Source: Globomyces pollinis-pini
Taxonomy: Eukaryota > Chytridiomycota > Chytridiomycetes > Rhizophydiales > Globomycetaceae
DNA length: 64,000 nucleotides
Assembly (NCBI GenBank): GCA_025399215.1
Contig: MU621149.1
Location: 1 to 64,000, forward strand
Direction of reading: 5' to 3'
Made by a program: the position numbers and the translations under genes. The notes beneath the pieces are model-generated. The model did not search any database. It was given only the letters and a program-made list of their open reading frames with translations, and was not told the DNA's origin. Below, piece after piece: positions 8,196 through 61,197 of the stretch (positions within the stretch are counted from its first letter, which is position 1; every line of letters starts with the position of its first letter).

Positions 8196-8988
8196 TTATG
8201 CTTGCTGAGATTTCATATACATTGCCATCCATCTCTGTTTCTTTGATAGAATGCAAGGCTCTGTTGAAGTATCTGGTGAGGGACGTTTTTTATGCGGAGA
8301 TTCTGTTCTAGTTTCTTCTTTTACCGACAATAAAGATGGATATGATGCTGTATGAGATTTTGTGGAAATGACACTTGTATCTGACTCACTCTCTAGAGGA
8401 GTAGATGCTCTAATAGGAGAAATCACAGAGTCTTCTGTGTGTGAAGTTTGACTCTCTGGGGTTTTTGGTAGTGTCTGTTTCACCTAAAAAATTAATGAAA
8501 ACATTTTTTACTTTTCGCTTTGGATCTCGCAGCCACTGAAAATAGTGAGGAGTCTTTCCTGTCTGCCAATATAAAGTAGCTAATAATACTCCTTTGTCTT
8601 TACAAAAGTTATTACCAATTTTTAAGTAATCAGTGTAAGGAGCAGCTAAAGGAGAGAAAGGTTTAGTATCTTTTTCAGAAACGATAGAACTAAGAGTGAG
8701 ATAATTAATATAAATTACAAAGAACCATCCTCGAAATAAGAGACCAATAGCTCACCATGTTTAGGAAAGACTTGTTTTCCCCCAGTAGTTTTATTGAAGA
8801 GAGACCACTCTTTTTGAGGTACGACCTATGATTAATATTGATTAGAATACCTATAAAAAATGAAATGAAATAAGAAATACCATAGCAGGCCACCAGTGAG
8901 TAGCATTTACATCATCAGGATCGACAAAGACTAGTTTCCTTGAAGGAGGAGTTTTGTTTGGGTTTTGTAATGGAATTGATAAAGTCAT
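8196..8988 (-). CDS. PWWP/Tudor-like chromatin protein
   Basis: Start taken at 8988 (MTLSIPLQNPNK). After removal of introns (55, 29 and 28 nt), the first 130 residues form one domain: VFVDPDDVNATHWWPAMVVP, then GELLVSYFEDGSF and YWQTGKTPHYFQWLRDP. The WWPAMVV core and the following 'vsYFedgsf' strand are the PWWP signature of chromatin and histone-binding proteins. The C-terminal 95 residues are Ser/Thr-rich with a basic patch (KKRPSPD, SKKQRW), probably disordered with a nuclear signal. There is no catalytic domain, so it is likely an adaptor. Total length is about 225 residues. The first intron, at 8826-8880, is stacked. Confidence 0.6.
8826..8880 (-). other. Stacked intron in the PWWP gene (2 units)
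   Basis: A 55-nt intron that splits into 8880-8851 (30 nt) and 8850-8826 (25 nt), both GT...ATAG, with an AG|GT junction at 8851/8850. Splicing the whole block joins WWPAM to VVPQKEW, the expected PWWP core. Confidence 0.7.
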
Positions 8989-18547: not shown

Positions 18548-20123
18548 TTATTCAACTATAATTATACGGGTACGAATGGTATTCGCTAATAATGCCAATT
18601 GTGATACAATCTCAGTAGAAACTTTCTCCGTTGTAACATCCGCTATCAAGTATCCTACCTTATCTTTCGTGTCCAATACTTGTTTACGTACATTATAAGC
18701 TGATAAAATATTATCAATTTCCTATTCATTATCTTATCATTCTTATTACCCTCAAAACTCCTCGTACATTACGGTGCATACAAATAATTCTTGAATGACC
18801 TTTTTGTAACTGCCAAGTTGCTACACTAGGGAAATTCATAGATCCAGACGTGGTACCATCATTGATGTATCGAACTACTGAATTCGTAATTTCAGATCCC
18901 ACTCGTTGCGCAGATTCTGTAGTCTTGTGACCTAATGGTTACTCTTTCGTCTTTTTTACTATATGCCGGAGTGAGAATAACATTACGTAAATTTTGAAGT
19001 GGTGAGGTAAACTTTGAATTGGATTTTACAGGAGTATCAGAATCTTACGGTATTAAAAAATCCCATTGAAATACCTGGGAAAACATCAATCGCAGCACCT
19101 CCAAGATGTCCGGATTTAATAACTTCAGCCAATGCTTCGTGATCCACCTTTAAATCAACTAATAAATCTACTTACTGCATCTCCATAACTATTGTTGATC
19201 AACAAACTTCCCTTTTTCATTTTCAATAATTGTTCCTTTCCAATTAAATGTTTGTTATCTGGATGGCAAGTCACATGTAAAGAAACAAAATCAGATTGAG
19301 CTAATAATTCATCTACGCTTGAAACCGCTAAACTTATCAACAATATATCAAAATACGTTCAGCACGACCCTACGATATCAGAATAAGAACTTACAATAGG
19401 CATAAGTGCCATTAAATCATAAAAGATCACTTTGATGGATAAAGCTTCAGCCATCACACCCAACTGAGAACCAGCATGACCATATCCAACAATCCCCAAA
19501 GTCTTTGATCGAACTTCATGACAATCATTTGAAGTCTACAATCAATAAACCAACTATACCTTTTGCCATTCCCCTTGATGAATTTCCTTACTACGGTCAC
19601 CAATTTGTCTTGACAAAAGAATGAGTTGAGAAATCACCAATTCAGCAACAGAATGTTGATGTTGAAATGGAGCAGTAAATACAGGAATCTGATGTTAGAG
19701 AGTCAAACAAACCCCCATCAATTGAGCTGTATCCATATCGACTTGATTTGACAAGGAACCAAAGACACCAATAGCGAGTAAACGATTAGCGGAACGTAAT
19801 ACTTCTTCAGTGAGGATACATTCATCCTTTTCCCTTGATAGACAAACGACATGAAAGTCTGAAATTTTCTTGACCAATTCAGGTTCAGAGAGATCATCAA
19901 AACATTCCACGACCTGATATTAGATGTAAGAAGATATTGATACCTAAAGATTAGAATTATCAATGACGAAACCTATAGATAAGAGAGTATAATAAGGATA
20001 CCTATTATAGATTTAAAAAAAAAGGGGAAATACGGTATAGTTTTGCAAGAAAGCATTAGCAGTTCCAATAGGTAATGGATCGAGTAAGAGTACTTTATAA
20101 ATAGGATTCGTAGGAAGCACCAT
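18548..20123 (-). CDS. D-3-phosphoglycerate dehydrogenase-like protein with altered active site
   Basis: Protein of about 430 residues after splicing roughly eight introns. An N-terminal half-domain (PIYKVLLLDPLPIG) is followed by the NAD-binding motif GIVGYGHAGSQLG, LIGKEQLLKMKKGSLLIN, GGAAIDVFPG and a C-terminal ACT domain (RNVRGVLR...VGYLIADV). The fold and order match fungal Ser3/Ser33, which start serine synthesis. However, the usual INASRG is INNSYG, so the catalytic arginine is tyrosine, and the usual TPHIGGST is TPAYSHKT, so the catalytic histidine is missing. It may be inactive or regulatory. The first long intron is a four-unit stack (19914-20033). An upstream ORF at 20127-20369 may hold a further 5' exon, so the start is uncertain. 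Confidence 0.8.
19914..20033 (-). other. Stacked intron in the PGDH-like gene (4 units)
   Basis: A 120-nt intron that divides completely into 20033-20002 (32 nt), 20001-19973 (29), 19972-19944 (29) and 19943-19914 (30). Each starts GT(A/T)T and ends TAG or CAG, and every internal junction is AG|GT. Removing the block joins LQNYT to VVECFDDLSEPELV, matching the fungal PGDH sequence. Confidence 0.8.
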
Positions 20124-22803: not shown

Positions 22804-23489
22804 TTTTTATAGTGTTTGATTATTGTAATGATTGATTTTTATAGTCCATTGGCTTTTATCGTGGCGTGGACAACACCCTGCACTCAAACACCCAAGTTTC
22901 ATTGCTCAGAGATAGTTCAGGGGTGATGGATATCAGACACAAATGGTGTTTTTGTGTTATATGATCAAAGTATCACGCGAGAGGGGATTCCGCTAGATAC
23001 CCAGTAATTGACTATACATCCATGAATAAGAATGTGGCATGAAGATGAGGAGTCCGAGTGACCTCCACGGGCTCACTAAAGGAATTCAAGCATTTCCAAA
23101 TCAGTTTTTTTATAAGGGGATCTAAAGATTGGGCTATAACAAGATCGATATATGAATGGAATCAATAGACATTCAATAAACCAATCTGGTACTCTCTACA
23201 GTCGTTTATTAAATTAAACACCAAACTCAAGAATGATGTCATCAATACTTGCCCATGTGATAACTTACAAGTGACATTATCAAATTAATTCACAATGAAT
23301 AATCAGATCAAAATTATAACATGTACCATTCCAATCCCTTAAACGAGCATCACTATGATATCAGATGATCTCAAGGTCCCAGTTACAAAAACAACTCCTC
23401 ATGGAGCCACAAACACTCTTGTGATGAAATGTGATCACAACCCAACAAGTAAAAAATACATTAACTGAATATATTTCAATTATTCATGA
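22804..23489. other. Intergenic stretch, nothing clear
   Basis: 686 bases between the membrane paralogue and the GH16 gene. No supported ORF, RNA or long repeat was seen. Confidence 0.4.
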
Positions 23490-26398: not shown

Positions 26399-29300
26399 AT
26401 GTCTAAACATAAAGATTCAAAAGCAAATATACAGAAATCAGATCTAGAGAAATCGATGGATAAACGACTGACAATTCCAACTTTACAAGTGCCTGGACGC
26501 GCAAGTCGTAGATCTTCAATGAGTGGACGAAGATCAAGTTTTGATGCTCGAGCGTTCAAGGCCAAATTAGCTGCTAAAAATCGTTGGAATATTTTGAGAA
26601 CTCAAGTGGTATTAATTTTCTATCAACTAATCGCTTAATATAGAATCAAGGATTCTTTAAAGTCGTACAAAAAGAATCCGTAGATGTATCAGGTATTTTA
26701 GTCAATCTTAACTTCCAATAGGTATGAAATATTTGTTAGTTTATTTTAGGTATTATTACTGTTCGAGTTGATTTGTAGATTTCGCAACTGCTGTGGAATC
26801 GTTATGGAGAGATGTCCATCACTATTCAGGAATCATATGCTTAGCTGAAACAGATACTACAGTAGATTTTCTAAATGGTGTGGGAGTTGTTAAAACAAGT
26901 AACCTTAACAATGCTAACCAAGCTTAGTTAATCTTCCACAAAATAGAAGAAAATTGAGACGTGCTGGAATAGATGAACTATCTTTTAATTTCAAATCTAA
27001 TAAACCAGTAGTAGTTGTGGAAGCCAACCAAGAAGAAACTTTTGATACACTTCAACGGCAATGGGGATTAAATGGCTTGTCCTTTGATAGTATTCCTAAC
27101 TGCGATGTCAATGACAACATGTTTGCGATATCAAAGGGGTTGAAGAAAAGGGAAATCGATGGTTTGTTTTCATATACCCTGACCTTTTATAGAAAAAACT
27201 GAACTCTCAGCTGTGAAATTTCAAATCCTTCAGAATAGAGGTTGGAAAATACTACTCATTGGTCTCACTCAAGCTGAGCCCTTTGCAAGATATGAGGCAA
27301 TGGTTGATTTAGGCAGATCGTTACCAAATATTGTCGACACATTGAACGATCAACATACTAGAAATGTAAATACCGTGAAAACTAATATTCAAACAGGAAA
27401 TAGGGGACGTCCTGATTAATTGCACAGTATCAGATGAACGAGCGGAAAACCGAATTAAAGCCTTATATTTATTGGGCCAGTTTTCTTTAGTTTTAGGCCA
27501 TTTGAGTGAATGTCACCCAATGCTATCAAAAGTTATTTTTATCGCGCTTAACAATAGATTTTTAAACATCTGGCAAGATTACTATTAAACATTCAAGCTA
27601 TGAAAACGGAGGTATGTGATTTCAATTTCTAAATATGACAGTTATCTCCTAAAGCTGATACTAGACTGCATCTAATTCGTGCGATTGCTAAGTTTGCGAA
27701 TTTCAAGATTTCAAATAACAATCAAGTTGAACATTTAGTGGTTTTAATGGCCTACAAAGAATTAATGAAAATCACCGAGGAAAAAAGAGAATTAAATTCT
27801 TTGAACCCTAATTTGTTTGTCTTATTGTCCATTTTAGATCTGCTAAATTCAAATGTAATCAAGATTTCTGATGTATTTTAGGTTGAAATTACGGACTTAA
27901 GTAAATCTTATATTGGAGCTTTATTCCAAAAATCTATTTATCCAATGCTTCATTCTCCACATGCTGAATTAAAGCGCTCTGCCATTCAATTTATTTCGTA
28001 ATTCATGAATTATTCATCTCGCTAGAAATTGGCTTCCAATTCAAAATGAAGATGCACTTTTGGTTGGATATGACAACCTAATTGATGGAATTAAATATAG
28101 TCGAATAATTGGGTATCAAAATTTCAACGAGAATGATTTCAATATAGAATTGCGAAACTTACAAGAGGTACTTTTAGCGTTCTAATTCGTAGAAAATACA
28201 TCTAGAAGAATGTAGAGTTTCACTTAGAGAAAAGATTATCCGATCAATCATCCAACCACCTGGTACGGTTGCCCATTTATTGCCTGTGCCTGGATGGTAA
28301 TTTTCTTTATTTTTCAATACTTTAGTACTGGGTTTTTTTGTGACTCTTCATCGGGAATGAGAAAAACCAAATCAATATTGGTAGATTTACCAGTACATGG
28401 AAAATCGAATGTCACTTTAACCCGATTAATCCCCCAGATACCCGGAGTACCTTCCTGCGTTACCACAACCCCGCCATTATATATGGTATCAATAGACTGA
28501 CTTAGTTAATTTTAGGTCGGTGAGAAATGGTCTGAAAGTAGGCCACCTCCAGATTCCCAATACGAGTATTGTGAAAGAATTGGAGCTATTCCAAGTCTTC
28601 CTCCATTGTTTACTTATAATCCAAATTCTCAGAACATTACAAGAGATTCCAAGAAACCCGAGACACCCCCAAATACTCTTGTTGTCGCACGAAACCCTAC
28701 AAAGTGGAAAGAAGTAGACGATTTACCAAAAGGAACTTCAAGAATACCAATTAGAAATGATACCGAACTTGAAAGCGCTTCTGGTAGTGCACCAGTTGGA
28801 TTCAACATAATTTGCCCTTATCCTGGATTTGATCCTGACAAAATAGATAGAACGGTTTCGTATATTTCAGCAATTTACGGTAAACCTATTCAGTGGAAGT
28901 CTTCAAATCAGAACAACCAACGTGCAGTTTTAAGTCAATCTGCTGACAAATATTTCTATCAAGACTACTCTTGTGTAGGCACTTTGGAAGAGACTCCAAA
29001 ACTTCAGTCAATTGATGAAGGAGCTACTTTTAATAGACATCCATCATTGTTTCCATGCAAATTACAGTAAAAGTTATATCTCTTATATTAGTGGACTTAA
29101 ATCTGGAGAATCTAGTACCGATTTTCCCATTGGCGCCCCAGTATTATTTGATATTTTACAACCTCAATCGCCTAAACTTCACCGAATATTAACCATCGTC
29201 GAAAACGTAGAATCTGAAGCAAGTAATATTGTGGTACAAAAAGGCGCAAATGATATGTAAGTATTCCGTATTGTTTATTATCAGTGGTGGATTATACAAT

Positions 29301-32300: not shown

Positions 32301-35300
32301 TAATACTTTGCAATCCTTTCTTTGTTCGGTACAATTGGTCAATCAAGGTGGCACCATCTGCCCGCAAAACACTAGCTTTTGAAATGCCATTTACAAAGGG
32401 CACTCTACCAAAGTCAGAGACATTCGCAGTACCGTTTAGATTGAAAACTGATGTGAGTGGAACTTTCGAAACCAAATGTGAAGTGTTTTTAGATCCGAAC
32501 GATCCATACAGCAAAAGTATCAGACTTGGAACAATACTCCTAAAAGGAATTGCAGTGTTTACACAACTTACGGGTCTTCCAGAGTCTATAGATTTCGGTA
32601 GCACTATAGTGCATCACAGTACTAAAAAGAAACTCAACCTTCAAAACGAAGGATCCCAAGAAATGGAAGTCAATGTATTGTTGAGGGCACCATTTTCCAT
32701 TTCTCCTCCAAAGTTTACAATCCCAGCAAAGTCGAACCAAGTTGTAGAGGTATCTTTCAATCCTACAGAGCACCGTCTTGCAAGCACTATCATGCAGATT
32801 TTCGCTAATCAAAATCTATATTGTGTGAAAGTTTCTGGTGTTGGTGGAACGGCACTCCTGGTTTGTGAAGACTACTCTGAGAAGCCACTGGATTTCGGTC
32901 TACATCAAGATGGTCTAATTGTTTCAACTAATATCCAATTTTTTAACAAAGGTTCAATTCCATTAAAGTTGAAGGCGGTTGTTTCGGATAATCCTTCTAG
33001 AATTAGGGTAGAGTTCTTGGGAATTACAAACAGCTCATCACACGAAGCTCCTAAGGTATGATAATCGTAATTTATCTTGCAGTTTGATATCAGAAAAGAT
33101 TACTGGAGAACTGTAAGAAGAAAGATAAAAGTTTTCCGATTTCTTTTTTCTAATCAGAAACCAATTCCATCTAAAAAATACGGATCACGAGCAAATACAG
33201 TTCAAAGAGATCCAATAAGAAAATATATCCCAGTTGAGGATGTTTTGGAGGTCGATCCTGTAACATCTTCTGTACAAGTGCCAGACTTACCAGCACTTTC
33301 TTCGTATAACTTTAGAATATCATACATTATAACGTATCACACATCGAATCTACAATCGGAATTATCATTGACGTATGTGCCAATCTGCGACGAGAGTGAG
33401 TCTGTTGCTGTGGAGAATCTTCTTGAATCTACTACCATTGAATTATTGGCCTCAGCTTTTGTTCCTCTTGATATACATCCTTCTACTCTAAGTTTCGGAT
33501 ATTGCCCCACCGAAACAGGTGCCATATCGAAGATTTCACAAACTGATAATGCAAATAATTATGGGGTTACTAGTTTAACCAGCAACAATAATTTTGTTTC
33601 CTACCTCCCAATCAAAGTTTCTAACCCTGGAAACAATGTGCAAAACTTGATTTTGGATACGATAAGTCCTGAATTTTTTATTCAGGGGAAAACTTGGGCA
33701 ATTGCACCAAAAGAGGTTATAGAGATACCAGTAGAGTTTCACCCCTCAAGAGAACAGACTCATGTAAAATGATTTATTAACACTCTAGTACATTGGTGAA
33801 GCAAAATTTACACATAAATATGGCTCGGTATCTGTTGTTCTGAATGGTGTTGGAGCAAGTGCTGAAATTGTAGCTGATGAAATTTTGGATTTTGGAAATC
33901 TCAAGCTGGACACCAAACTCTCCAAAAATCTTACAATTCATAACCGGGGTATTTTAGATTGTTCTTATGAAATTGAAATCGTTCAGTCGTCCTCCACCTT
34001 TTATTTAGTCGATGAAGAGGATCCGTATGAATCGTACGGCAATGTAAAAAGTGGATTATCTGTAATCAAGCGAATTGAGTGCCTCAGTAAAAAGAAGGAT
34101 GGAATGGAAGGTCATATATGTATAAGATGGAAGAAAGTGCCCAATGGAATTCAGGAGAAAACAATTGTTCCACTAAGAGTTTCGACTGGTTACCCAGATT
34201 TTAAAATGCAGCTCACAGAATTGGACTTTAAAGTGTAATAGAATGAGTAATTTGACTCTTAGGGTATACTTAGATATCAACAGAACCATTGATTTTAAAA
34301 TATCGAACAATGGGAATGCAGTATGCAATTGGAAGGCAATATGCGACCATCCTACTCTTTCTCTAAATGTAGATGAGGGCATAATTGAATCGGGAGAGAC
34401 CATTATCCTCAAGATAACATTTAAGCCCGTGGAATATGAGATTTTAGATAGTTCCATTACCTTCCAGACAGATTCAGGAACGATAAAGTTAATATGCTTT
34501 GGTGTAGTAGGAGTACCTTTCTTGAAGATATTTAGAGATTCTCGAGACATTGACTTTGGTGTTGTAACAGTAGGCCAACAGCATCACACTTTTGTTGATA
34601 TTGCCAATACAGGTATGTATAAATCTTTCTATATACTAATTGATCTTAGGGGCAATTCCTATCGACTACGAAATCCAATGGATATATATGAGTAAAAACC
34701 AAAAACCTTGCAAACTACACGAGTTTGATTTTTTCTTTGTGGAGCCAAATAGTGGTAGAATACTGCCCAATGACATTCTTTCTTTAAAAGTGTCACTTTT
34801 ACCAAAAGAGTATGCCACAGTGTATCAAGCAAGCTTCATTATAAGAACGAAGGCGGGAGAGGAGCATACGGTAAAAATTCGAGGTGTTGGAGGGCAAGCT
34901 ATCATTAAAATCAAGCCCCCCACTGTTACGAATAACTACGCACGTCCAATAGCCACTCCCGAAACAGATGACAAGGAAGTTAAACGAAATTTTCAACGTT
35001 CAAAAGATGAAAGTGAAACGGGATCGAGAATACCTAATCTTCCCACCAAAAGCTTTGAGGCAAATAGACATTTGTTTAAAGCGCATGTAAATAACCTTCA
35101 TGAAATTCTTGCTGGCTTAAGAGCTGCTGAAATGGAAATTTCACCAGAGCAGGTAGATGAAACACCAAATCCAACAAGGTAAAGCATCACAGTTGCTAAT
35201 TTATTTTAGGCGAAGGTATCAACTTGAAAAGCGAGAAGATGTTGCTGACATTCCAGGTTTGATATGATGCATAATTAACCATATAGAGTCCACCAAATTT

Positions 35301-38300
35301 TTTATGGAATATTTGAATGAAATGGAAAAAGAACTGGATGAGGCAATCGGAAAACTTGACCCAACTGGAGCATATAGCTTAGATTTAAGTTCATCGCGAC
35401 CTCGATCGACAATCACACCTGATACTTCAACGCCTTTGAATCCAACACCTCCTTCTCAAAAGAGTTCAAGGAGCTTTGGCAGTTATAACCCAGGTCATAG
35501 AATGCATAGGTCCTCCAGGGGTACCCAATCATTAGTAACGACTCCAAGAGAAAAATCTTCGAGTAAAACACCGGACGAACATATAGATGGTAGAAGAAAT
35601 TCAACTAACAATTAGATTTGAGCCAGAAAAGGGCAGATTATGATAAGATGAGTCGTGGGAGCCGAGTATCTTCAAGGCAATACCAAATAATGGAAGATAC
35701 TATGGAACTGGATGAGTTTACAACTAGTACTAAGAGTGCTGGTGCTTCAAAATCACCTTCAAAGGCAGATCAAGATTCCACACGGAAAAGAGAGAAGAAA
35801 AGCCGACATCTAAGTGAAAAGACAACTCAGCATCGTAATTCAACAATGGTCATTCGAGAAAGTTCGGGAGTTGATTTAGTAGAAGATGTTATTGAAGATA
35901 GCTCTAATGTTAATCTGGATGTGCCATACGTAGATGAATCTATCAGTGCTAGTAAATTAGATTCAACACAGCGCATTGATATGGACGGAAAAGATAAATC
36001 AACACAGCAGATTGATATTGATGTAAAAGAGATTCAAGTAGGTGAAGATATTCAAGGTTCTAAATCCATGTTGATCGATTCACTTAACCCTAACGAAGCA
36101 CTAAATGAAGTCAATGATGAAAATCTAAGTGAATCTTTCAAGTCTATGGTGTTATTTGATGTGAAAGAACAGAAAACAGAAGTGGAGAGAATAATCGAAA
36201 TTGGGCAAAAACTTGGATTAACATTAGAAATGGCCGAAGGAGATATGTATCAAATTAAACAATTGAATCAAATGGTCTCAAATTTCATGGTGAGTACTCG
36301 TTCTACCATTAGAACAGTAAAAGAGCAGTTAATTCATGAAACTTGGGTTCCAAACAGAGAACTACTTCAACAGGTACCAGTTCTATTGTTGATTGTTAGG
36401 CTCTTCGTAAGTTGGAAATGTCCGCGGTCGCAATTCAAGATATGTTTATTGATAATCAAAAAGATTCTGGAAAATCCATTGAAGATGAGTGTCCCACATA
36501 TCCTTTGAGCCTGATTTCAGGAGGGGAACGAACTAGTAACTAAAATTTTCTAATTTAGACTCCACATTACTCTTTAATCTTCCAAATGAAGGAAATATTA
36601 ATTTTGAATACGAAATCGTTCCTAATTATTTAAACTTTTTAGTCCCAGAAGATGTGATGGGTGAAAAATACGAATTTTTTGTGATAGAAAATAGTAGTGG
36701 AATACTAGGACCAGGGCAAAATGTGAACATATCTGCTACTTTTTCAGCCACTATAACAGGAAAGTATAGACAAGGTTTTATAGTTAAATCAGGCGAAGAA
36801 GAAATTGCTAAGTTTCAAGTCTCTTGTGCGGTAGGAAATCCGAAGTTGACATTGTCCGTTCAAACAATCGACTTTGGATTGGTAGCCAAAAGTAAAGTTG
36901 TCGAAAAAATGTTTTCAATTGAGAATAGAGGATCTTATGAAGGTTCATGGATACTAGAGGTAGTTGGAAACTCGGATTCCGATTCGGGCTCCTTTATTTT
37001 ATCTGCAACGTCAGGCAAAACTGATCCAAATGAAAAAACAATTGTCTCTATTGCATTTAAACCAAACAGAGATGGCCAATTCTTTGGTACAATAAGACTT
37101 GTTTGGAAAGATGGGCCAAACATTTTGACATTGCAAGGCAGTGGGGGTATTGCTAAGTTGGATTTTTTGTATCATTCGATAGAAGATAGAGACTTTAATG
37201 GTTTGGATTTTGGAACTTGCTTGGTAAATTCTGTGAAAGAAAAACGAGTTACTGTTAAAAATATCGGCCAGATGGGTACAGAGCTTGAAATTGTAATGAA
37301 TATCTGCTAAACTTGATAGGGACATCCAAACAAATTTTTTACTTTTGAAATCCCTAGGGACTCCAATGGTGAAATTCATATTGGCCCTGGCGACAGTTTC
37401 GATTTAATTATTTTCTACAAGCCAGAAGCTGTTGAAAAACTAAAGGACTTCATCACCTTTATATTAGGTGTACCAAGAGTTGGGTCACAGAATATTCCAA
37501 CCAAAGGTATTGCAGGAACACAGAATTGGACTTTCTCGGGCGAATTAGACTTCAAAAATAAGCCATTTGGAACCACTCAGACTCGAACCCTAAAAGTTAC
37601 AAATTCAGGAACTTTAGACTTGCCATTAGAGATAAGCTGGCTACCGCCAAAAGCATCGCTTAATTTTGAGGTTCAGCTTCAGGATTGGGACGTTGGCAAA
37701 CCTTTGGTTGCAGGAAAGACTGCTAAAATATCAATCACTGCAACAGGTAAAATGGCAGGTGAAATTTCTGGATCATTTCGCTGTGAATATTCCAAATCAC
37801 AATTTAAAGATTATCCATACTTTTTCCACTGCTTCACCGAAGAGATTGCTTTGGATAATAATCAAGATGTTTCGTTAGGAAGGGTTGCAGTTGGTGAATT
37901 TGCACAAGCATCACGCAAAATAACAAATTTTAGTGATAAAGTTATTCACTATCGAGCTAAAATTACAAACCAAGATGGTAGAGAAGAGTTGCTAGATTGG
38001 AGAATTGATGGAGACAGTAATTTAACACATTTGATAATTCTCTTATAGCTGGCACATTACTACCAAATGAATCCGTTATTATTAATGCTATATTTGTATT
38101 GGTTTCTTTATTTAACTATATTAGGAAGCCGCAAAAGGTAGGGGGGAGGATTGGCAAAATGCCCAACTTGTAATTGAGAAGAAATTGGTAATTTATGGTA
38201 TCTATATCTTTAGGATGAAGACAAAAATGATAACTGGACTGTATTTTCAACTATATCACTGCAAGGAGCAGTAGGCACTCCTCATTTCTCTGTTAATCCA

Positions 38301-41238
38301 ATGGATCTTGATTTTAAAGTCATCAAAACAGGTAGATTCAACACAATTGATGTATCTTTTACGAATGACGGTTCTGCACCTTGTGTTTATGAAATTCTAC
38401 CCTGGGAAGGGGAAGATGAATTTTCAATTATCAACTTAAATGACATGAAAGGAATGGTGGCAGTAAATCAATCATTATCTTTCCAAGTGAAATTCTTTTC
38501 TGAGCTATCAGGGGAATTTTCAACAAAAATTACGGTATTGACGGCTGTAGGACCATTTACATTGAATGCTTTTGGTGAAGCTTATCCAATTCAGCTCTTT
38601 ACCGAGAAACTACCTGAGATTATTCACTTTGACAGGATGAACTTGGGAGACTCACAATTATATGAAGTAATTTTCTAATACCTCACCAGAAATTTAGCTC
38701 GTTGTGGAAAATGATTGTATATTGGATGTAGAGTTGACTAGTGTCATGACTACTAGTGGGGGAAATGGTCTTTTAGAGTACATGAAGTGTTATCCCGCAA
38801 AAGGACTTCTTGGTGCTAATATGCGCAACAGTGAGGAGCGGTAAATTTTTATTATTAAAAGTGTTTTAGTTCGGAACTTCGAATTAGCTTGGAAGGAAAT
38901 GTATCAATTCCTAAGGACAACGACGGGGTACCTGATCAAACTTTTATGCAATCATTTCCACTCAATCGAGAACTCAAATATACTTTAAAGGTTTACAATA
39001 TCGAAGAATTACTTTTCCAAATTCCCGTTCAAATATCATTTTTTGTATCACCAATAACTGTTGTGCCAAAAGCAACAGAATCACATGAACTACCTAATAC
39101 ACCTACTTTGACTGCAATTGATTTAGGATGTTTTGTAAAATATTCATATGTATTAACAGCAAGGTTCAAGAGGTTGGTGGAAGCAGGAAATACATAGTGT
39201 ACAATGACAATTCATTCGCAGTCCGATATTCGATCGAACTGAAAGACCCCTCAAACGTAAGACAGTTTTGCTTGATTAAAATTATTAGCGATTTGCTATA
39301 AATGAAAGAGTGCTGGAAGTGATCCCCGGAGGGGAGTATAGCGATTTTACTCTTACTATACTCCCTAAAGTTGAAATTCAAGAAGGTATCAGTTCAGAAA
39401 CTTTTAATGGAGAAATTGTATTGATAACAAGTCCTGCCGTAATGGAAAACGTTGTAATACCAATCGCCGGAACTCTGGCTGATGTACTCAAATTATTGCA
39501 CTAAAATGGTAGAATAGCGATGAAATTGAGCTACCAGAGGAAATCTACTTTGGGCCTATTTTCAAACAGAAGAGAGCATTGGAGAAATTTTCTTTCACTA
39601 ATACAAGCAAAAAGAAACTAACATGGGAGATTGCAGTTGAAGAAAAATATGCAGATATTTTTAGAGTTCTAGATAAGTCTTCAGACGTGACTCCACCATT
39701 GTGTACAAGCACAGTTACTATTTCTTTTTGCCCACAAATTGCAGTAAAATATGAAGCAACGGCATATTTCAAATCATCCAAGAGAAATCATGCAATAATG
39801 CTCATTGGTGAAGCAGCAGAACCTGCTTTAGAAGTTACAGTAGAAGAGACAAATTTCGGTGTTATTGGGTTAAGTGAGCCTGAATTCAGAGAAGTGGAAC
39901 TGTTTAACCCTACCCAACTAAATTTACGTATCCGACCTCGATCAAATAACCCGAATTTCTATTCTTTGGAGTCTGAAATAGAGTTGGCTGCAGGAGAGAG
40001 GAAAAACATAAAAGTGATATTTGTGCCGTCCACTGGAAATACACCGGAGACAGGAAACATGACATTTTATCAGTTGGGTGATTTACAAGAAGGTCAAGAT
40101 GTGGAAGAAGAAATTTTGATCGAAGAGCAAGTAATGATTTCTAGAAGGGCTGGAAGTTCTCCTCGTAGTCGGGAACGTACACCTGGTAGTCGACCATTTA
40201 GCGCCCGAGAAGAAGTTCAGGCGTTGAACCAGGTAACATTTCAAGGAGTGGGGGGAGACTTTGGATTCGGTATGGGTGGTGCAGATGTTGCAAAAGATGA
40301 TGTAGAACCCTTAAATGAAGAAACTCTTCAGATTTTAGGAAACAACGTTGAAATATCCAACATCCAGATCAAATTTAATAAGGTTTCCACAAAAGTGAAA
40401 GTTCGGAAGGTGTTTGAAATTGAGAATACTGGTGATACATACTTGGATTTGGTGGTCTATAAGTCCGATAACACAGAAATGGCGGACTATATACCCAATT
40501 TTACTGCACAGGGATTTCTTCGATATACTGTTAGCCCATGTAGTTGCAAAGGTATTTAGTTATTTTTAATTTTGCTAGTTCCACCAAAAAAGAAAGAAAA
40601 TCTGTTCATTCTAGTGGAGGTTTGTCGCATTTATTACTGATAAAGTAGGGTTTATCTGATGGGTCAGATTATTTTGACTTTTTTGTCAAGACAAAGAATC
40701 TGATGGTCAACAAAGTAGTACGGGTCCGTTGTACGGCTACCGTATTTACTTCGAAAGAATTTGAAAAGATACAGTCATTTTCAAGAGCAGATGAAACCAT
40801 TGAAACATTTTTGGATGCAAAAGAACAAGAGGAGCGATATGCGAGAACTGATCAACACTTATGGAAAGTTTTATTACCCATCTGTCGAGTTTCAGTGAAA
40901 CTTCCCAGTGAAGAATTTGCATGGATCGCACCAGTTGAGGTAAACCGTGCAAGATCAATTAAATAATTAGCCCAATGTAAATAGGATTGAAATCGGGCCT
41001 TTTGTTGTACGACCGCCTGCCATACCAGATAATCTGCCACCTAAGGGTAAAAAATGGTACACAAATCGTATTTCGATGGCTGTGGACAAATACAAGGTAC
41101 ATTTATAAGTTGTCTTAACAGTAGTCGGAAAACCATGGCAATCACATTGCAGAAGCAAGAAAAGATGAAGCCGCAGCGTTTATCGGCAAAAGCAATATGG
41201 AAAAGTTCATTAATCTGGAAAAGAAACGCAGTAATTAA
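26399..41238 (+). CDS. Giant multi-ASH/MSP-domain axonemal protein (HYDIN/CFAP-like)
   Basis: One gene of about 14.8 kb with dozens of short introns and roughly 4,500 residues. The N-terminal part (26.4-28.3 kb) is Ser/Arg-rich and then helical (YLLGQFSLVLGHLSECHP; RLHLIRAIAKFANF). A Pro/Tyr-rich part near 29.5-29.9 kb has repeats like GYDCDGQPFFIPRGF. From about 30 kb many immunoglobulin-like ASH repeats appear: LDFGICVPENVQTTRILTV, IDFGSTIVHHSTKKKLNLQN, LDFGNLKLDTKLSKNLTIHN, IDFGLVAKSKVVEKMFSIEN and others. Between 35.3 and 36.3 kb is a Ser/Asp-rich linker. The last exon ends FINLEKKRSN at 41238. ASH repeats occur in HYDIN, CFAP47, CFAP65 and DLEC1 of the flagellar central pair and microtubule apparatus; which one this is cannot be decided. 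An intron near the 5' end is stacked. Confidence 0.75.
26693..26778 (+). other. Stacked intron in the axonemal gene (3 units)
   Basis: An 86-nt intron made of 26693-26721 (29 nt), 26722-26749 (28 nt) and 26750-26778 (29 nt). Each begins GTAT and ends TAG, with AG|GT junctions. Removing the whole block joins ESVDVS to DFATAVESLWRD in one open frame. Confidence 0.7.
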
Positions 41239-52501: not shown

Positions 52502-53429
52502 TTATCGAAATCCAATAGATGGGTGTACTCCTGTTAGATGTTTCTTCTCTTCTTCTTTAAGATATTCATCTACTACTCGTATATTGTCTAATCCTATCTT
52601 TTGAGATATCTAGAAATGAATATCAAAATCTATTTAACTTGAATCATGTTCACAAGAACACTGGGATCTACACTTCCACTTAATCCCTTTTGAACACCAC
52701 ATACCATCCCTTTTGAATTCACAATGGTTGAAACGGTGACAGAAGTACAAAGTTCTTCCATTGGTGTGGTATCAATTACAGTTGAATCATCAATCATGGA
52801 CACTGTTATACATATTGGAACCAATTCTCTTCCCTTTAGTATTTCTGTTTCTTCATCTGAGACTGTGAAATCTGATGCTCCATCCGTTGTTTCAACCGTC
52901 ACTTTAGCAAGTCTAGTATTATATAGGGCAGCTAAAAATCAATCAACTTGGAAAATTTGCTTACCTAATTGATATAAATGAATACTTTTATACCTTTTAT
53001 AGCAATGAATATACAATCCAATAGATTTCCACCATCATCCAAGACTAAAACATCTACAACTACCAACCAATGTACGGCACCCGGAATGATGATTAAAGCC
53101 GAATTATCTATTCCAGCTTGAGGACCATTAAGTGATCTATTTAAAATTTGAGCGTAATGACTACAAGTTGATTTTGTAAGTTGAGCAGCAGGAGAACAAT
53201 CGACTGAACAATGAATTTTTCCGATTTCATTTGGATCATCTAATACTTGTAATTTTACACCTACTAATACATCTGAAGAACCTAAAGTGACGCGACTTGA
53301 ACCAGAAGCCTGGTTAATGATACTTGTTTCAATTTTTAGTGGTCTTGATTGATGATTTGATCTTCCATCTATTCTAATTCCTTGCCTAACACTTTCTTTG
53401 ATGAAGCTAGTTTCACTTGGAGAAATCAT
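52502..53429 (-). CDS. RRP42: Exosome core subunit RRP42/EXOSC7
   Basis: An RNase PH-fold subunit of the exosome ring. It starts MISPSETSFIKESVRQGIR; GIRIDGR is the family's opening motif. Then come SSRVTLGSSDVLVGVK, IHCSVDCSPAAQ, LNRSLNGPQAGID, LVVVDVLVLDDGGNLLD, AIKAALYNTRLAKV and the C-terminal GLDNIRVVDEYLKEEEKKH. Eukaryotic RRP42 has lost RNase activity and is structural. The order and spacing match EXOSC7 rather than EXOSC8/9. Three introns; the one at 52932-52993 is stacked. It is divergent from TFIIS across an unusually A-rich 155-base stretch. Confidence 0.88.
52932..52993 (-). other. Stacked intron in RRP42 (2 units)
   Basis: A 62-nt intron: 52993-52965 (29 nt) and 52964-52932 (33 nt), each GTA...TAG, junction AG|GT. 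Removing both turns AIK plus ALYNTRLAKV into the conserved AIKAALYNTR of the family. Confidence 0.78.
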
Positions 53430-53584: not shown

Positions 53585-54990
53585 ATGGCAATTGAAAGTA
53601 AAGATCTGATAATGTTAAAACAACAAATCACAAAAGCACTGGAAAATAATAATAATTTGGTAGATTGTATTACTAATGTTTAGACTATATTGGATCTACT
53701 AGATCAACTAGCAACTTGGAATGCTACCACCGATTCTCTAAAGGTTTGGATTAGTTTACTAACCTTAAAGGTATCTTTTTTATTATTTCATATTATTAGT
53801 CTTCTCGTATTGGTGTGTTTGTTACTGAGTTAAGAAAGGCTCCAAATACTAGTGAATTGGTCAAACAAAAATCAAAAGAACTAGTATTGAAATGGAAGAA
53901 AGATATTGGAAAAGCTACTACTTCACATACTCCTCAAAAAAAGTCAATAAATACCAATGTTAATGTAATATCAGATACAACAAAGTCGGATCTGACATCT
54001 GCAAATTCTTCAAATCCTTCAACACCAAAAACTCCAATTGAACGGACTTGTGAAGGCGACAATGTGTTTGTTAAAAAGTTACCTGAAAAAGTTCGAGTAA
54101 AATGCATTGAAATGTTGTATAGTGCATTGGCAACAGGAACGAATGAAGGTATTTTAAACATCTTTCATCTACTATTGCTTTCTTACATTTGAATCTTTTC
54201 AGGTTTTAATATTCAATAGTGAGAATGTTGATCTTATACACTTCTTTAAGCAAATAACGTCAAGATACTGAATAGTACATATACCTATTTGTATTTCTAA
54301 TTCAGTATCTTTAAATGTAATATGATCAGGTTATACTACATACGTTAGTTTGCTCTCAACAAACTCCATTTTTCAAACACACATTTTTTTTATTTTACTA
54401 ATGTTTTTAGAATCATATGAAGTATTAAATATTGCAGAAGAAGTTGAATCAAAAGTATTTGATGACAACAAATCGACAAACAATACTTACAAAAGTAGAA
54501 TGAGATCCTTGGTTGCCAATTTACGTGACAAAGGAAATCCATTGCTAAAGATGCGTGTTGTATCTGGTATCACCATTGTTCAATTAATGGTAGGAAATAT
54601 TAAACCTAGAGAATTTGCTTCAATGACCCCTGAGGTATTTGTCAAGTTATTAATTTGATTAGGATATGATGTCCAAGGATAGAAAAGCTTTAGTGGAAGC
54701 AGGTGAGTTTTCATCTAGTTTGTACGCACTTGCCTTAAAATTCTTTATTATCAAAGATTTACTAACGATCTAGCTGCTAAAGAAGCAATGTCAGATGCTG
54801 TTACTGCGAAAACCATGCATGCGGAAACCGATATGTTCAAATGTGGAAAGTGCAAGGGTCGAAGGGCAACTTACTATCAAATGCAAACGAGAAGTGCGGA
54901 TGAACCTATGGTATATAATAATGGTTTTGATAAATCTAGACAACTTTTGTAACTTGTACTATTTGTTATAACCGCTGGAAATTCTGTTAG
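53585..54990 (+). CDS. DST1: Transcription elongation factor TFIIS
   Basis: Start at 53585 (MAIESKDLIMLKQQ). The N-terminal LW domain (LDLLDQLATWNATT, SSRIGVFVTELRKA, LVLKWKKDIGKAT) is followed by a disordered linker. The central Pol II-binding domain follows (VESKVFDDNKSTNNTYKSRMRSL, IVQLMVGNIKPREFASM). The C-terminal zinc ribbon has FKCGKCKGRRATYYQ, the catalytic-hairpin RSADEPM, and VTCTICYNRWKFC. The RSADEP Asp-Glu pair stimulates backtracked RNA cleavage. Introns of 24, 56 (stacked), 261, 72 and 29 nt, plus others, are removed in this model. The 261-nt intron is the longest found in the window. Confidence 0.92.
53744..53799 (+). other. Stacked intron in TFIIS (2 units)
   Basis: A 56-nt intron: 53744-53770 (27 nt) and 53771-53799 (29 nt), junction AG|GT. 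The first unit is in frame and open, so it could be mistaken for coding, but its removal gives TDSLKSSRIGVFV, whose length matches the LW domain of other TFIIS proteins exactly. Confidence 0.72.
54149..54409 (+). ncRNA. Long TFIIS intron with a 12-bp-stem hairpin (candidate structured RNA)
   Basis: At 261 nt it is several times longer than other introns here. It contains AAGATACTGAAT at 54262-54273 and its exact complement at 54300-54311, enclosing a 26-nt loop. A GT...AG run of 54 nt (54149-54202) precedes it. I could not fit box C/D or H/ACA motifs with confidence, so a small nucleolar RNA remains only a possibility. Confidence 0.3.
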
Positions 54991-55183: not shown

Positions 55184-57731
55184 TGACAATATCAGAAGTA
55201 CCTCCCGACTGTACATTTTTTTTCGCCTATATCTATCCAGACTTGGTTGGTACTGGACCATTTTCTAGTTTAACATGTTGTGATAAACAATCAACGAATT
55301 TAATTTGTGATTTAAACAATCAATTATCTATAATGTAAATTTCAAGAATTCTAAAAATCGATAGTGACTTGAATAATAATCATTTGGAAGGATATATAAG
55401 TGATTCCATTGGAGAATTAACAAATCTTCGTATCATGTATGATATGATGATACTAAAATCCATAGAAATTTATCACAAAACAATTTAACAGGAATGATAC
55501 CATCTAGTATTGAACAATTAACGAAATTACAAGAATTGTACAATTAATTTCATTTTAAACTATTTAGAAAATTGAATAGTAATCAAATGACAGGATATAT
55601 TCCCAATAGAATTGATGAATTGATTGAATTAAAAGAATTGTAATCATTCATTGAATCAGATTGAATTTATGATGTAGGTATTTGAATGAAAATCTATTTT
55701 ATGGCAAGATACCAGATACGATTGGTAATTTAAGTTCATTAGTACAACTGTAAGTAAAAGATTTCATACTGATAATCAGTGATTTAACCATGAATGATTT
55801 TAATGGAACCATACCAAAATCAATTCAAATTATGAATAATTATACTAATTTCAAGTAAGTTTATTAATAATCGTTAAGATATAGATTTGATAACAAGAAT
55901 TTAATAGATTCTATAGATATAAAACCAAATATGATGACAACTACGTATATGAATGATAAAATAATGACATCTATACCAACATCAATAGGAAATGAATTTG
56001 ATCAAACCAATGAAAAACAATTAAATATTCCATTGATTATAGTAGTATTATTACTATTAATATTCATTTTATTATTTACTATTATAAATCAACATCAACG
56101 TCATCATATTGAAGAAACATTACAAAATTCAAAAAAGAATTCAAAAATTACAACAACCATTTCAATTCCATCCATTAATAATGTAATGATAGATTCTATT
56201 GAAGATATTCAAGTTGATTTTAAAAAGAAATCAATTGAAAATGATGATATTGTTATCAATCCAGAATTTGGTTCAAAAGATACTTTGAAATCTACACCAA
56301 GTTTACAAAATATACAAAGACCAAAAACAATTAAAACTGATAAATCAAATTCAGAACCAATATTAAATGAAAAAAATTCAATCAATCAATTTACAGGTTC
56401 AGTAATGTATGATATAAGATTGGTTATTAAAAAGAAAATTGCTGGTGCTGGTGGTTGTGGTCAAGTATTTTTAGCTACTTATGCTGGTAAAGAAGCAGTT
56501 GCAAAAATACCAATTGAAAAAGATCATGAAATTTTAATTTATAATGAAAGTCGGATTATGAAATTAGTGGAATGTCCTTGGACAATTAAAGCATTAACAT
56601 TTTTAGATGGTAATTAATCTATGTGGAAATTAATACTTTGTTAAATAGGTGCACCTATTAAAATACCTGGACAAATTAATATACCACGTACAGTTTTATT
56701 ACTTGAATATATGGATCTTGGATCATTATCAACTTATCTTACTCCAAATCCACCACCAGATCAATATAATCTTTACAATTCTGTAAAAGATCAAATGTTA
56801 CAAATATCAATAATGTTTGCTAAAGGATTGGAGTATATACATCAACAAGGTTTATGTCATTTGGATGTTAAACCTGAAAATGTTTTATTAAAACAATCAG
56901 AAGGTGGTCAGATAATAGCAAAAGTATCTGATTTTGGATCTTGTAAACCCAATGGTTCTCGTGAACATGTATTCCAAACGTCTGGGTACATTCCACCAGA
57001 AGGTAAACAAGATAATGAGGTAAGATATCACTTTTACATTTCCACAAAACCAATCTCATTTTAATTTATCAGTACAATCAAAAACTTAATGATAGAAAAC
57101 GTACATGTTTGATGTATATGCTTTTGGATGTTCAATGATTTACATGTTGACCAACGAAAATTATCCATTCTTATGGGAAGGTGGTCATCAAAGTATTCAA
57201 GGCAAACAACGATTTCTATCCTCTATTCTCATCAACACCAAATTAGTTGATATGATCATCTCTAGTATTCATCATGATCCACAACAACGTCCCAATATGA
57301 CTTTCATCATCAAACAATTGAATGAATTTCAAAAAAATGATTTTGAAATGATAACATTCAACAAAATTAATACTAGTATATTAATGTCTTGTCAACCCAC
57401 CATCAAAACTACAAAATTAAATTCATCAATTGATTATCAAAACACACCAGGACAATATCTATTTAAACTTTTTGATTTACAATCACCAACAACACTCCAA
57501 CAATTCCATCAATCATTTCATTCCATATACTCACCTACCATACCCATCCCACTTGATATGTTCAAACAATACATTCAATCAAATGATGATATGGTTACAA
57601 GTCAATTATTGGATCAAACTATTTTTAAAACAATGGAACCTTTGTTGGATGGTGATGTGGATATACAACAAATTTGGATAGATGAAATTCATCATCAAAT
57701 TCAATTCATGATGGATCGTATATTAAATTGA
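55184..57731 (+). CDS. LRR receptor-like protein kinase
   Basis: An extracellular leucine-rich repeat region, a transmembrane helix (IPLIIVVLLLLIFILLFTII, about 56030-56090) and a cytoplasmic kinase. Plant-type repeats (LTGMIPSSIEQLTKLQEL; MTGYIPNRIDELIELKEL; FYGKIPDTIGNLSSLVQL) are encoded one per exon. The kinase keeps the P-loop AGAGGCGQV, the VAIK-like lysine (AVAKIP), HLDVKPEN and SDFGSC, with GYIPPE in place of APE. Two introns of about 40 and 77 nt interrupt the kinase. The tail of about 130 residues after the kinase is Gln/His-rich. No clear signal peptide was seen. Active-looking, so probably a surface sensor. Confidence 0.82.
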
Positions 57732-57840: not shown

Positions 57841-58090
57841 ATTTGAAAATGACACGTACACATCGTTTTAGTGTTTGTTTCCAACATCAAAACGTGTACA
57901 ATGAAACTCTTCAAAAGTTCAAAACTCATCAAAAAATGAATTACAAGTTGAAAATCTTGTATTGAATTTAAGAGATTTGAAAATGACACGTACACATCGT
58001 TTTAGTGTTTGTTTCCAACACCATAACAATGTACAATGAAACTCTTGAATCAACAGTTCAAAACTCATCAAAAAAGGATTTACAAGTGCA
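57841..58090. repeat. Tandem duplication, unit about 134 bp, two copies
   Basis: Copies start at 57841 and 57975. The first 60 bases of each are almost identical (GAAAATGACACGTACACATC and following). Differences accumulate in the last part. It lies between the convergent kinase and PEX10 genes and has no coding pattern. It could be a duplicated terminator or promoter element. Confidence 0.8.
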
Positions 58091-58116: not shown

Positions 58117-59318
58117 TTAATAATTCATCAATGGTAACAATAAATTCGCAGTAATAGGTTGTCGACATAATGGACACTCTGCCTTTGTCCTTATCCAATC
58201 CGCAATACATTTCCAACAAAATACATGTCCACAACTAACCAAATTTAAAATAAAATCAAACACAAAACTTTGTACTGGTAGATACTTTACGTTGTTCTAA
58301 ACATAAAGTACATTTAAGGGTATCATGAACGGGGTTATGATTGATGAGATGTGTATCACTATCATGTTAGAATATAAAAAGTGTACTCGTAATCACTGGT
58401 TTCGGTGGTTGTTGGCATTAGATTTGTTAATAATAATTTGATAAAAATCATGATTCCCAATATTTCATACCCCATTTCATTCTCCCCTTGACGCAATTGA
58501 CGTATAAAAGTCTATACATTTAAAAAAAATTGGAAATCTATACATATTTGAATTGAAATAAACGTTTGGAGAGATGATAATAATGACCTTTAGATTATAA
58601 CAAAAAAAGTAAACCTTGGATATAGAATAATGCTAGATGAATGGATAAAAAAGGACCTTTGAGTATCCGTATCAAACGTTCCAAGATTTCTCGATACCCA
58701 AATCGTTTCACAATCACTACCATCAACAACAATCACATTACTTTCTACACCCAAAGGTGTGAATTGTTTGATCAAATATGGTCCTGTTACTAATGTCATC
58801 AGATACATCACTCGACGCTATCGTTTAACAATTTTGTTTACTAGTAACGTTGGATATGTATTGTTGTATGTGATTAAAATATCTGAATATTCTTCACCAA
58901 GTGTTTGAGTTCCTTTTAGAAATGAATAAGTTTAGATGGTACCTTTTCTATTAATATCGAATTTGTTTACCTATACATATGAATCTAACAATATTTTACC
59001 TATACATATGAATCTAGTAATAGTGTACCTAATCATATCAATGAAGCATTTATATACCTATATATATCAATGAAATAACCAAACAAACCTAAAAATGAAA
59101 TCAATCAAATCCAAACCAGTCAAGAGAGGTATTCCATAATATACAGTATCAATACATAATCGAAACAATTGAGAATATTTATTTTGAAATCTAGTACCAA
59201 ATAATTGGGTTGAAATGTCTTGTAATTGGGTTCGAATGGATTGAAGGTAAACATCATCTTTTTGAATGGATCGGAGGATATCGGGTGGATTGGCTTTGGG
59301 ATACTGTGGATGGTTCAT
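58117..59318 (-). CDS. PEX10: Peroxisome biogenesis factor 10 (PEX10), RING E3 ligase
   Basis: Start at 59318 (MNHPQYPKANPPDILRSIQ). The N-terminal membrane part shows KDDVYLQSIRTQLQD, then the family's QTLGEEY and LHLALFYIQGHYYHLSKRL. The C-terminal RING appears once introns of about 28 and 34 nt are removed: CTLCLEQRKVSTSTNCGHVF, then CWKCIADW, then AECPLCRQPIT. The protein ends LLPLMNY. PEX10 with PEX2 and PEX12 ubiquitinates the import receptor PEX5 at the peroxisome membrane. The match to human PEX10 is strong over all blocks. The intron at 58913-59116 is the largest stack found. Confidence 0.9.
58913..59116 (-). other. Stacked intron in PEX10 (7 units)
   Basis: A 204-nt intron that divides without remainder into 59116-59089 (28 nt), 59088-59058 (31), 59057-59029 (29), 59028-59000 (29), 58999-58971 (29), 58970-58943 (28) and 58942-58913 (30). 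Every unit begins GT and ends AG; every junction is AG|GT. Units 4 and 5 match at 25 of 29 positions; units 2 and 3 share TTCATTGATAT. Removal of all seven restores LLTG to TQTLGEEY. Confidence 0.85.
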
Positions 59319-59509: not shown

Positions 59510-61197
59510 TCAATACGAAGACAGTAGTGAAGGCTGATCTATTGAAGAGAAAGGTTTCATTTCAGGGTCAAGTGTAAGAATATCACCCATTAGGGAATCC
59601 ATGTGTTCATTAAGACCTGAACCAGAGAATTCAGATTCTTTCCCATCACCATTAGGACGTTGTTGTTCAGGGTAAGGTTCTTCTAATTTAGTGGGATTAT
59701 CATATTGTTCCATTTTAAAGTTTTGGGAATCAAATTGATGTTGTAAATCATAATCATGAGATGGAATCATAGATTGAACACCATTTTGATGTTGTTCATC
59801 CATATTTTGCCATCCAACTCCAGAGTAATTATCGTTATGAGTTCGCATATGTTGAGTAAGATGATCAGAACGAGCAAAGGAACGATGACAATCTGCTACC
59901 ACACATATATATGGTTTTTCACCAGAATGTGAACGAACATGACGACGTAAATGTTCTAATCTTTTAAAGGTACGACCACAACCTTGAATAGGACAAGTTT
60001 GTTTTTCATTACCAGATCCACCTGATAACCTTCTACCATCACGACCTCTATTCAAATGATAAGGAGCAGGACGATTTGGTTCTAAACCAGGTTGAACAGG
60101 TTCAAAATTTCTAAAAAACATTGGTTTTTGATTTTGATGATTTCCATTTTGTTCATGATTATATTCAGGATTGAACATTGAAGGTAAATTGAGACCATAA
60201 TTTCCTTGCATGTTATTTGGATTCATATAAGATAATTGAGGACTATGAGAACCCATACTTGGAGAATTATGCATCATATTTGAGTGCATGTTTGACATTG
60301 AAGGAGAATTATGATGTGGAGTAAAAGATCCATGCCTAGTTTCTGGACTATTACCTAAAGAATGTTGAGGAGATGGATACATTAAAGAATTTTGAGAAGG
60401 GGAACCCATCATTGCAGGGTGCATAGAAGGGGAATTCATTAATGAAGGATGCATTGAAGGGGAACCAATTTGAGAAGCAGGATGATGTAATAAAAGGTTA
60501 TCATGTTGAGGAGAATTTGTCATATTCATATTATTTTGCATTGACATTTGAACTGGGGAATGATTTCGAGGAGGAGGAGCTGTAGCGATTGAAGGTAAAC
60601 AATGTAGTCTAGCTTGTTCCATAGCTTGATTCATCATTAATGGTTTTTTAGCTACCGTACAAGGAGGTTGACCTGAAGCTTCACGTTTTAAATCTCTTTC
60701 CAAAGCATCCTATGAATTTAGATTTATAATTTTAATGAAGACAAGAATATAGAAATGAAATAGCAATAATTTAAACTTACCAAGAATAGTTTATCATGTT
60801 TAACAGAATACCAATAAAAGACTTTTTGTTTTTTTTGAGTACGAATGCATTGATTTTCGTACAAGAATTTCAAGAAAGGAGACCTTGATTCTTCTAAAGT
60901 AGAATCGGCCATTGGTTTTAAATTTCTTAAATCTGAAAAGATACCTTCTTCAAATTTTTTTTGTAATACGATTGAACGACCTAAACATTCGAATCTATAG
61001 ATGAGAGCTCTAACGATATCCGTTCCAGTTATATGAAATAATTCATTCCATAAGATACAAGAAACAGATTCACCATTTGGTAGAGTGAAACGTCTTATTG
61101 ATTCATTTTGATTCCAATTTACAGGAGCAGTAGATAAGAATAATTTGAATTCTTCATGATGTTGATTAGCGAATAGTAGATCATTTTGATTATCCAT
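59510..61197 (-). CDS. STE12: Ste12-type transcription factor (STE domain plus two C2H2 fingers)
   Basis: Start taken at 61197 ([12 protein letters not shown]). The STE DNA-binding domain spans the first exon and the start of the second ([59 protein letters not shown]), joined across a 71-nt intron (60710-60780). A long Asn/Ser/Pro/His-rich region with repeats of SPSMHP follows, then two C2H2 fingers ([38 protein letters not shown]) near the C-terminus. STE plus C2H2 is the SteA form of basidiomycetes, ascomycetes and early fungi. It acts below MAP kinase signalling in mating, invasion or development. Strong marker that this is a fungus. Confidence 0.93.

Follow-up and report, generated by a model that had tools for sequence, protein, structure and literature searches.

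The PEX10 locus and its intron array

We analysed a 64,000-nt stretch of the chytrid fungus Globomyces pollinis-pini, order Rhizophydiales (contig MU621149.1, positions 1 to 64,000, assembly GCA_025399215.1; hereafter the window), in which a PEX10 gene on the minus strand contains a 204-nt block that reads as a head-to-tail array of minimal introns (Table 1). When re-read on the minus strand, the block is cut by six AGGT words into pieces of 28, 31, 29, 29, 29, 28 and 30 nt, all of the form GT...AG, just as the initial annotation had described it: exactly seven units of 28–31 nt with only AG|GT at the joints. The internal similarities reported there were also recovered: units 4 and 5 are near-copies with 4 mismatches in 29 nt, and an 11-nt core (TTCATTGATAT) is common to units 2 and 3. 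Removal of the array together with six further introns of 24–34 nt yields a 275-residue PEX10 protein, which at the array junction reads ...YYGIPLLTG^TQTLGEEYSDI... and aligns there without a gap to the solved Peroxin-10 (7t92_C). The public protein BC833DRAFT_524798 (P0001) of Globomyces pollinis-pini has an identical array junction and an overall identity of 97%, and its alignment to our model differs only around one other intron. That the protein requires the removal of all seven units, as had been proposed, is borne out by the reading frame: three of the 128 possible keep-or-remove patterns are open, and full removal restores the conserved protein, while the other two keep units 1 and 4 or units 2 and 4 and insert residues within a conserved motif. 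Downstream of PEX10, a stretch of about 67 nt was seen by eye to be present twice (57845-57911 and 57979-58046, 134 nt apart).

Such tiling was compared with dinucleotide shuffles in which the terminal GT and AG were fixed and GT...AG units of 22–39 nt were accepted. None of 5,000 shuffles tiled the PEX10 block, and the same result (0/5,000) was obtained for each of the CHMP3, PHYHD1, MCM and CLK arrays introduced below. Short arrays may arise by chance, as 502 and 1,178 of 5,000 shuffles tiled for lengths of 62 and 55 nt, respectively. Three TAGGTA words with 16–28 bases between them had 99 matches genome-wide (several per array), compared with 8 for the reversed pattern. Among the 24 four-base words made by arranging the letters of AGGT or ACCT, searched on the plus strand of the window, only ACCT reached chains of six, at the PEX10 array; CCTA and TACC reached chains of five, apparently as shifted readings of the PEX10 joints, and the other words reached four at most.

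Intron arrays beyond PEX10 and their splicing signals

The stacked-intron arrangement extends beyond PEX10. From loci of a genome pattern search, four loci of another search and 20 additional ones, together with the window and locus L042, we reconstructed 26 arrays with 2–12 units each, comprising 161 units and 135 AG|GT joints; the arrays span 62–365 nt and the units 23–38 nt. Most of the arrays were found through a run of three AGGT words, and the AG|GT joint is part of the definition of the set. In the second batch, 17 of 19 chains were settled, nine by the top choice of the script and eight by hand (L046, L047, L048, L049, L050, the third of L053, L055 and L059, where the top choice differed or did not tile), with L052 and L063 left out; no chain passed the filter at L054, L062 and L064. 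For MCM, WD40 and SSU72, a lower-ranked candidate that restores a protein motif was chosen, and for MBOAT the second candidate was used rather than the longest open frame. Chains with borders that could not be fixed by homology were kept outside the set (all three at L033; those at L006, L011, L012, L014, L019 and L040; the second ones at L021 and L034; and those at window positions 26693 and 8826). An AGGT chain by itself does not prove an array, and chains that look coding or unproven were dropped (L009, L013, L015, L018, L024, L037, L043 and window positions 35152, 25729-25792 and 16502); at the last of these (16502-16579), the gene finder calls only the first unit an intron and the remainder coding.

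For nine arrays in seven genes, the spliced junctions fall within alignments to solved proteins (Table 1), the alignment of the pantothenate kinase being weaker beside its second array of seven units. The remaining 17 arrays were placed by open, coding-like flanks, mostly together with the gene family to which the gene presumably belongs (MCM, CLK/LAMMER kinase, WD40, SSU72, ATG22, UBE2H, Hem25, MBOAT and others).

The intron background of the genome was obtained with an ab initio gene finder that has no knowledge of AGGT and was constrained to merge abutting introns into a single one, over a 164-kb sample made of the window and ten 10-kb stretches at fixed positions of other contigs. The 262 predicted introns of 45 nt or less have a mean length of 28.8 nt (standard deviation, sd, 3.1), in agreement with the typical length of about 29 nt given by the initial annotation. 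These tiny introns have GTAA or GTAT donors and TAG acceptors, frequencies that are partly self-reinforcing because they are learned by the gene finder, and the branch-site motif YTRAY, which is outside the finder's model, peaks 6–9 nt before the intron end. With the PEX10 and SSU72 arrays, both missed by the finder, the sample contains six arrays of 2, 2, 3, 4, 4 and 7 units, of which five are in the window, picked for this very finding, and one is in the unpicked 100 kb. Scaled very roughly to 18.5 Mb, this corresponds to about 200 to 700 arrays genome-wide, and the PEX10 block is probably one of some hundreds in Globomyces pollinis-pini.

The array units share the build of the 262 predicted solitary introns, with GT, branch site and AG at the usual length (28.9 nt, sd 2.7, versus 28.8 nt, sd 3.1). 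The branch-site motif was found in 64 of 109 internal units, where shuffles expect 18.3 (sd 3.8), and in 150 of 262 solitary introns, where 48.4 (sd 6.3) are expected. At position +3, the 161 units have A in 136, T in 23, G in 2 and never C, and at position −3, T in 126, A in 18, C in 17 and never G; neither these bases nor the branch motif had any role in finding the joints. Seventy of the 109 internal units are within the similarity range of unrelated units, and 39 of them contain the motif, whereas shuffling gives an expectation of 11.8 (sd 3.0) and 0 of 1,000 shuffles reached the observed count. Since the signals are kept in internal units that are unlike their siblings, the units appear to be in use rather than relics; this is our main argument, and it supports the view that each unit is an intron of its own, with zero-length exons in between.

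The initial annotation had also held that longer inserts survive here only as chains of removable units, a claim that fails because indivisible longer introns exist in conserved genes. The ETF-QO gene has an indivisible intron of 86 nt (L044, 4805-4890, minus strand) whose junction is gap-free against 2gmh, and in the glutamine synthetase III gene (L036) an intron of 342 nt, in which no AGGT occurs, is very probably real, with 3o6x aligning on both sides and the junction falling in a loop of variable length. Among the 17 predicted introns of more than 45 nt in the 164-kb sample, four were fully tiled by AG|GT units (55, 62, 86 and 120 nt) and 13 were untiled, some of the latter probably being fused genes or other gene-finder errors. 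Two indivisible introns, the one at L044 and that at window 60710-60780 (both on the minus strand), open with GTAAGT, a stronger donor than the GTAAT or GTATT usual in tiny introns, an observation on two introns.

Array growth, proposed multi-step splicing and alternative explanations

Similarity between units was evaluated as the number of pairs above the 99th percentile of between-array identity. Such pairs made up 22 of 135 adjacent pairs, 13 of 109 pairs two apart, 9 of 84 pairs three apart and 5 of 154 pairs four or more apart, and identical neighbours were found in PHYHD1 (units 2 and 3) and in the pantothenate kinase gene (units 7 and 8). Near-copy neighbours and a similarity that fades with distance therefore indicate growth by local tandem duplication, as had been suggested for PEX10, and the identical neighbours and the excess of similar adjacent pairs are the local copies that this mode of intron gain leaves. 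Four of the 161 units, two from near-copy pairs and two not, were searched genome-wide with up to 3 mismatches and had no match outside their own arrays, so that no introner-like dispersal was seen for these four; among these searches, the one with the consensus of PEX10 units 4 and 5 matched units 4 and 5 only.

It is likely, in our judgement, that the seven units of the PEX10 block are each a complete minimal spliceosomal intron, separated from one another by exons of zero length, and that they arose by local duplication and are removed in several splicing reactions. An intron of about 29 nt would be locally duplicated in tandem and the array thereby extended, and a copy that ends in AG and is followed by GT would be removable at any length modulo 3 and thus at no cost to the protein. 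The units would then diverge, with donor, branch site, acceptor and length held by their use in the spliceosome. Once one unit, or several in a row, had been removed, the same exon end would meet the next GT, and the cycle would repeat at one exon junction. Because all the joints are AG|GT, the same mRNA would result from every removal order; judging from the sequence, each array would thus undergo several reactions in an order that is irrelevant to the product. With somewhat less assurance, we also favour a genome-wide form of this reading, in which multi-step splicing is obligate and chains of 2–12 units are removed singly or in blocks, in any order, with the CAG last acceptor finishing the process. 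The arrays would then be tandem repeats in which every copy is under splicing selection.

Several points weigh against our main reading. Tiling was the entry condition for all 26 arrays, with eight settled by hand, so the lack of broken joints is partly built into the set, and a plain AGGT triple was rejected as a significance test, its 855 forward versus 1,703 reversed matches being uninformative. The indivisible introns (86 nt, 342 nt and 13 of the 17 predictions above 45 nt) indicate that longer pieces are removable by the spliceosome here, so that bigger steps could be possible for arrays as well. Of the 26 last units, 12 end in CAG (for example, L048, L053 and L046), compared with 5 of the 135 remaining ones (Fisher p 9e-8) and 32 of the 262 solitary introns (p 8e-5), an excess that is not predicted by strict unit-by-unit removal and is at present unexplained. 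As a guess, the last acceptor is perhaps the sole obligatory one because blocks are often skipped; alternatively, and equally as a guess, CAG|GT may be shunned at inner joints, where a strong donor would sit on top of the acceptor. First donors are weaker if anything, with T at +3 in 9 of 26 versus 14 of 135 others (p 0.003), and two of the three public gene models checked leave the array partly unremoved.

Some of these observations would be accounted for if each array behaved as one long intron and left in a single step, its ends being the first GT and the last AG and the inner AG|GT words being relics of tandem duplication. The existence of indivisible longer introns and the marking of the last acceptor by CAG fit such a course, the mRNA is identical by either path, and two unverified predictions with AG|GT inside that are only partly tiled (window 7253-7354 and 54149-54410) could be decayed arrays. 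However, relics should decay, whereas the internal units unlike their siblings keep the branch site and the +3 and −3 bases at the level of solitary introns, and a joint is absent in none of the 26 arrays, although tiling was the entry condition; we thus consider one-step removal unlikely. A mixed path, in which units usually leave one at a time or as blocks and certain units stay in, giving variant transcripts, would agree with the special last acceptor and with the public PHYHD1 model (P0241), in which precisely units 4 and 8 are retained, with their borders at AG|GT joints. The 19 residues thereby added are, however, missing in three aligned relatives, and the public CHMP3 model (P0122, 158 residues), which begins within units 7-8 and is missing the conserved N-terminal part, with over one third of the protein lost, resembles a gene-finder error. 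Both models (L032, L034) are apparently wrong at the arrays, while the public PEX10 model is correct there and retention would be open in only 2 of 127 PEX10 patterns; we accord the mixed path a low probability.

With regard to origin, unrelated introns, introner-like or reverse-spliced, might have been inserted at AG|GT joints in place of tandem duplication, and the 70 of 109 internal units without detectable similarity to siblings would be consistent with this. Near-copies are nevertheless enriched among adjacent units and decay with distance, and genome-wide searches with four units, at up to 3 mismatches, gave no copy elsewhere, so that insertion of unrelated introns seems quite improbable. 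Finally, the motif is short and coding sequences have AGGT chains too, which might suggest chance or an assembly artefact. The failure of all 5,000 shuffles to tile PEX10, the genome-wide excess of TAGGTA matches and the exact protein junctions in the alignments to solved proteins argue against this, and units as dissimilar as these would be unexpected from collapsed or expanded repeats; such an explanation is extremely improbable.

Other features of the window and relation to known introns

In addition to PEX10, the window contains further predicted arrays and two counter-examples (Table 1). A 4,546-residue gene model at 26399-41238 on the plus strand, with 36 predicted introns of which 34 are tiny, is HYDIN-like by eye, which fits a flagellated fungus. 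On the minus strand, two neighbouring intronless open reading frames at 20442-21314 and 21955-22806 are membrane-protein-like and clearly alike. A search of the window with Rfam at gathering scores and a tRNA scan gave no match.

Table 1. Positions and supporting evidence of the PEX10 gene, its introns, other features of the window and arrays located elsewhere in the genome (window coordinates unless a locus is given; aln., junction within an alignment to a solved protein)
Feature	Size	Position	Strand	Basis and remarks
PEX10 gene, ATG to stop	275 codons + stop, 8 exons	58117..59318	−	Spliced model open throughout; 7t92_C alignment; public protein P0001
PEX10 intron array	7 units, 204 nt	58913..59116	−	Sequence division at AGGT; shuffle test
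Array unit 1	28 nt	59089..59116	−	Sequence division
Array unit 2	31 nt	59058..59088	−	Sequence division; 11-nt core common with unit 3
Array unit 3	29 nt	59029..59057	−	Sequence division
Array unit 4	29 nt	59000..59028	−	Sequence division; 25/29 identical with unit 5
Array unit 5	29 nt	58971..58999	−	Sequence division; genome search
Array unit 6	28 nt	58943..58970	−	Alternative AG 5 nt before unit end
Array unit 7	30 nt	58913..58942	−	Sequence division
PEX10 solitary intron	24 nt	58818..58841	−	Spliced gene model
PEX10 solitary intron	25 nt	58717..58741	−	Spliced gene model; public model different here
PEX10 solitary intron	27 nt	58588..58614	−	Spliced gene model
PEX10 solitary intron	32 nt	58512..58543	−	Spliced gene model
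PEX10 solitary intron	28 nt	58359..58386	−	Spliced gene model
PEX10 solitary intron	34 nt	58235..58268	−	Spliced gene model
Array, gene presumably 2-hydroxyacid-dehydrogenase-like	4 units (32, 29, 29, 30)	19914..20033	−	Gene finder without AGGT knowledge
Array near start of HYDIN-like model	3 units (29, 28, 29)	26693..26778	+	Gene finder; outside set of 26
Array, gene presumably RRP42/RNase-PH-like	2 units (29, 33)	52932..52993	−	Gene finder; 502/5,000 shuffles tile too
Possible array	2 units (30, 25)	8826..8880	−	Gene finder; outside set of 26; 1,178/5,000 shuffles tile
Indivisible intron, kinase-like gene model (counter-example)	76 nt	57020..57095	+	Prediction only
Indivisible intron, zinc-finger gene model (counter-example)	71 nt	60710..60780	−	Prediction only
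PHYHD1 array	10 units, 285 nt	L032/L034 pair		Aln.; ...LIFK^QPDIGGEV...
CHMP3 array	10 units, 289 nt	L032/L034 pair		Aln.; ...LAKE^VVNS...
Pantothenate kinase gene, three separate arrays	9, 7 and 5 units	L053 (C451:2400-4400)	−	Aln.
SNF1/MARK-type kinase array	12 units, 365 nt			Aln.; ...KIT^DFGLSN...
ATG3 array	8 units			Aln.
DCN1 array	7 units			Aln.; short intron beside array taken out manually
SSU72 array	4 units	L042		Gene-finder miss

The arrays share individual properties with several known systems. In very long introns of Drosophila, recursive splicing at AG|GT ratchet points with zero-length exons proceeds by separate reactions (PMC6110457). The arrays resemble these introns, as described there, in that adjacent intron segments have acceptor and donor juxtaposed around AG|GT, here at 135 joints in 26 arrays with the −3 and +3 signals kept; they differ in that they are not parts of very long introns, the whole arrays measuring 62–365 nt and their segments being minimal (23–38 nt). 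Removal in separate reactions with distinct lariats, which characterises splicing of the ratchet-point type, is for the arrays a reading of their sequence, to which the branch motif in 64 of 109 internal units lends indirect support. The stwintrons of fungi are complex introns of stacked units that are spliced consecutively (PMC5639578, PMC9024468), and the arrays likewise form one complex intron from stacked units. In a stwintron, however, one of the splice signals of the outer intron is split by the inner intron, whereas the array units abut, none interrupting another and every one having a GT and an AG of its own; and stwintrons are pairs, whereas the arrays have up to 12 units.

Gain of new introns out of local DNA duplication, as we propose for the arrays, has precedents: in Cryptococcus, where intron gain by repeat expansion is known, one gene acquired two introns copied from its other introns (PMC2395259), and intron gain by local DNA duplication was described in potato (PMC4974935). 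Unlike the arrays, a head-to-tail arrangement without exons in between is not mentioned in the available part of the Cryptococcus report. Introner-like elements also multiply introns in fungi, and in Zymoseptoria tritici within-gene tandem duplication accounts for less than 1% of single intron gains (PMC4457414); the multiplication is alike, but the copies found here are local only. In ciliates, the spliceosome handles introns of about 25 nt, similar in size to the array units, and arrays are not mentioned in the accessible text of that report (PMC5014332). A literature search found no account of head-to-tail arrays of minimal introns, a weak negative as most subscription papers and preprints lay outside its coverage. 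To our knowledge, the ingredients are each known, and their combination and scale are new.

For practical annotation, automatic gene models can break at intron arrays, as in CHMP3 and PHYHD1. The natural arrays of 2–12 units provide a system for asking about intron definition with a length rule and about the removal order of adjacent introns, and they also raise the question of how a single AG|GT is used by both the acceptor and the donor machinery. If multi-step splicing of the arrays is true, zero-length exons and AG|GT recursion would not be a special device of giant introns but could be what ordinarily becomes of minimal introns after duplication, and the arrays would be a route to a higher intron number that leaves the protein untouched.
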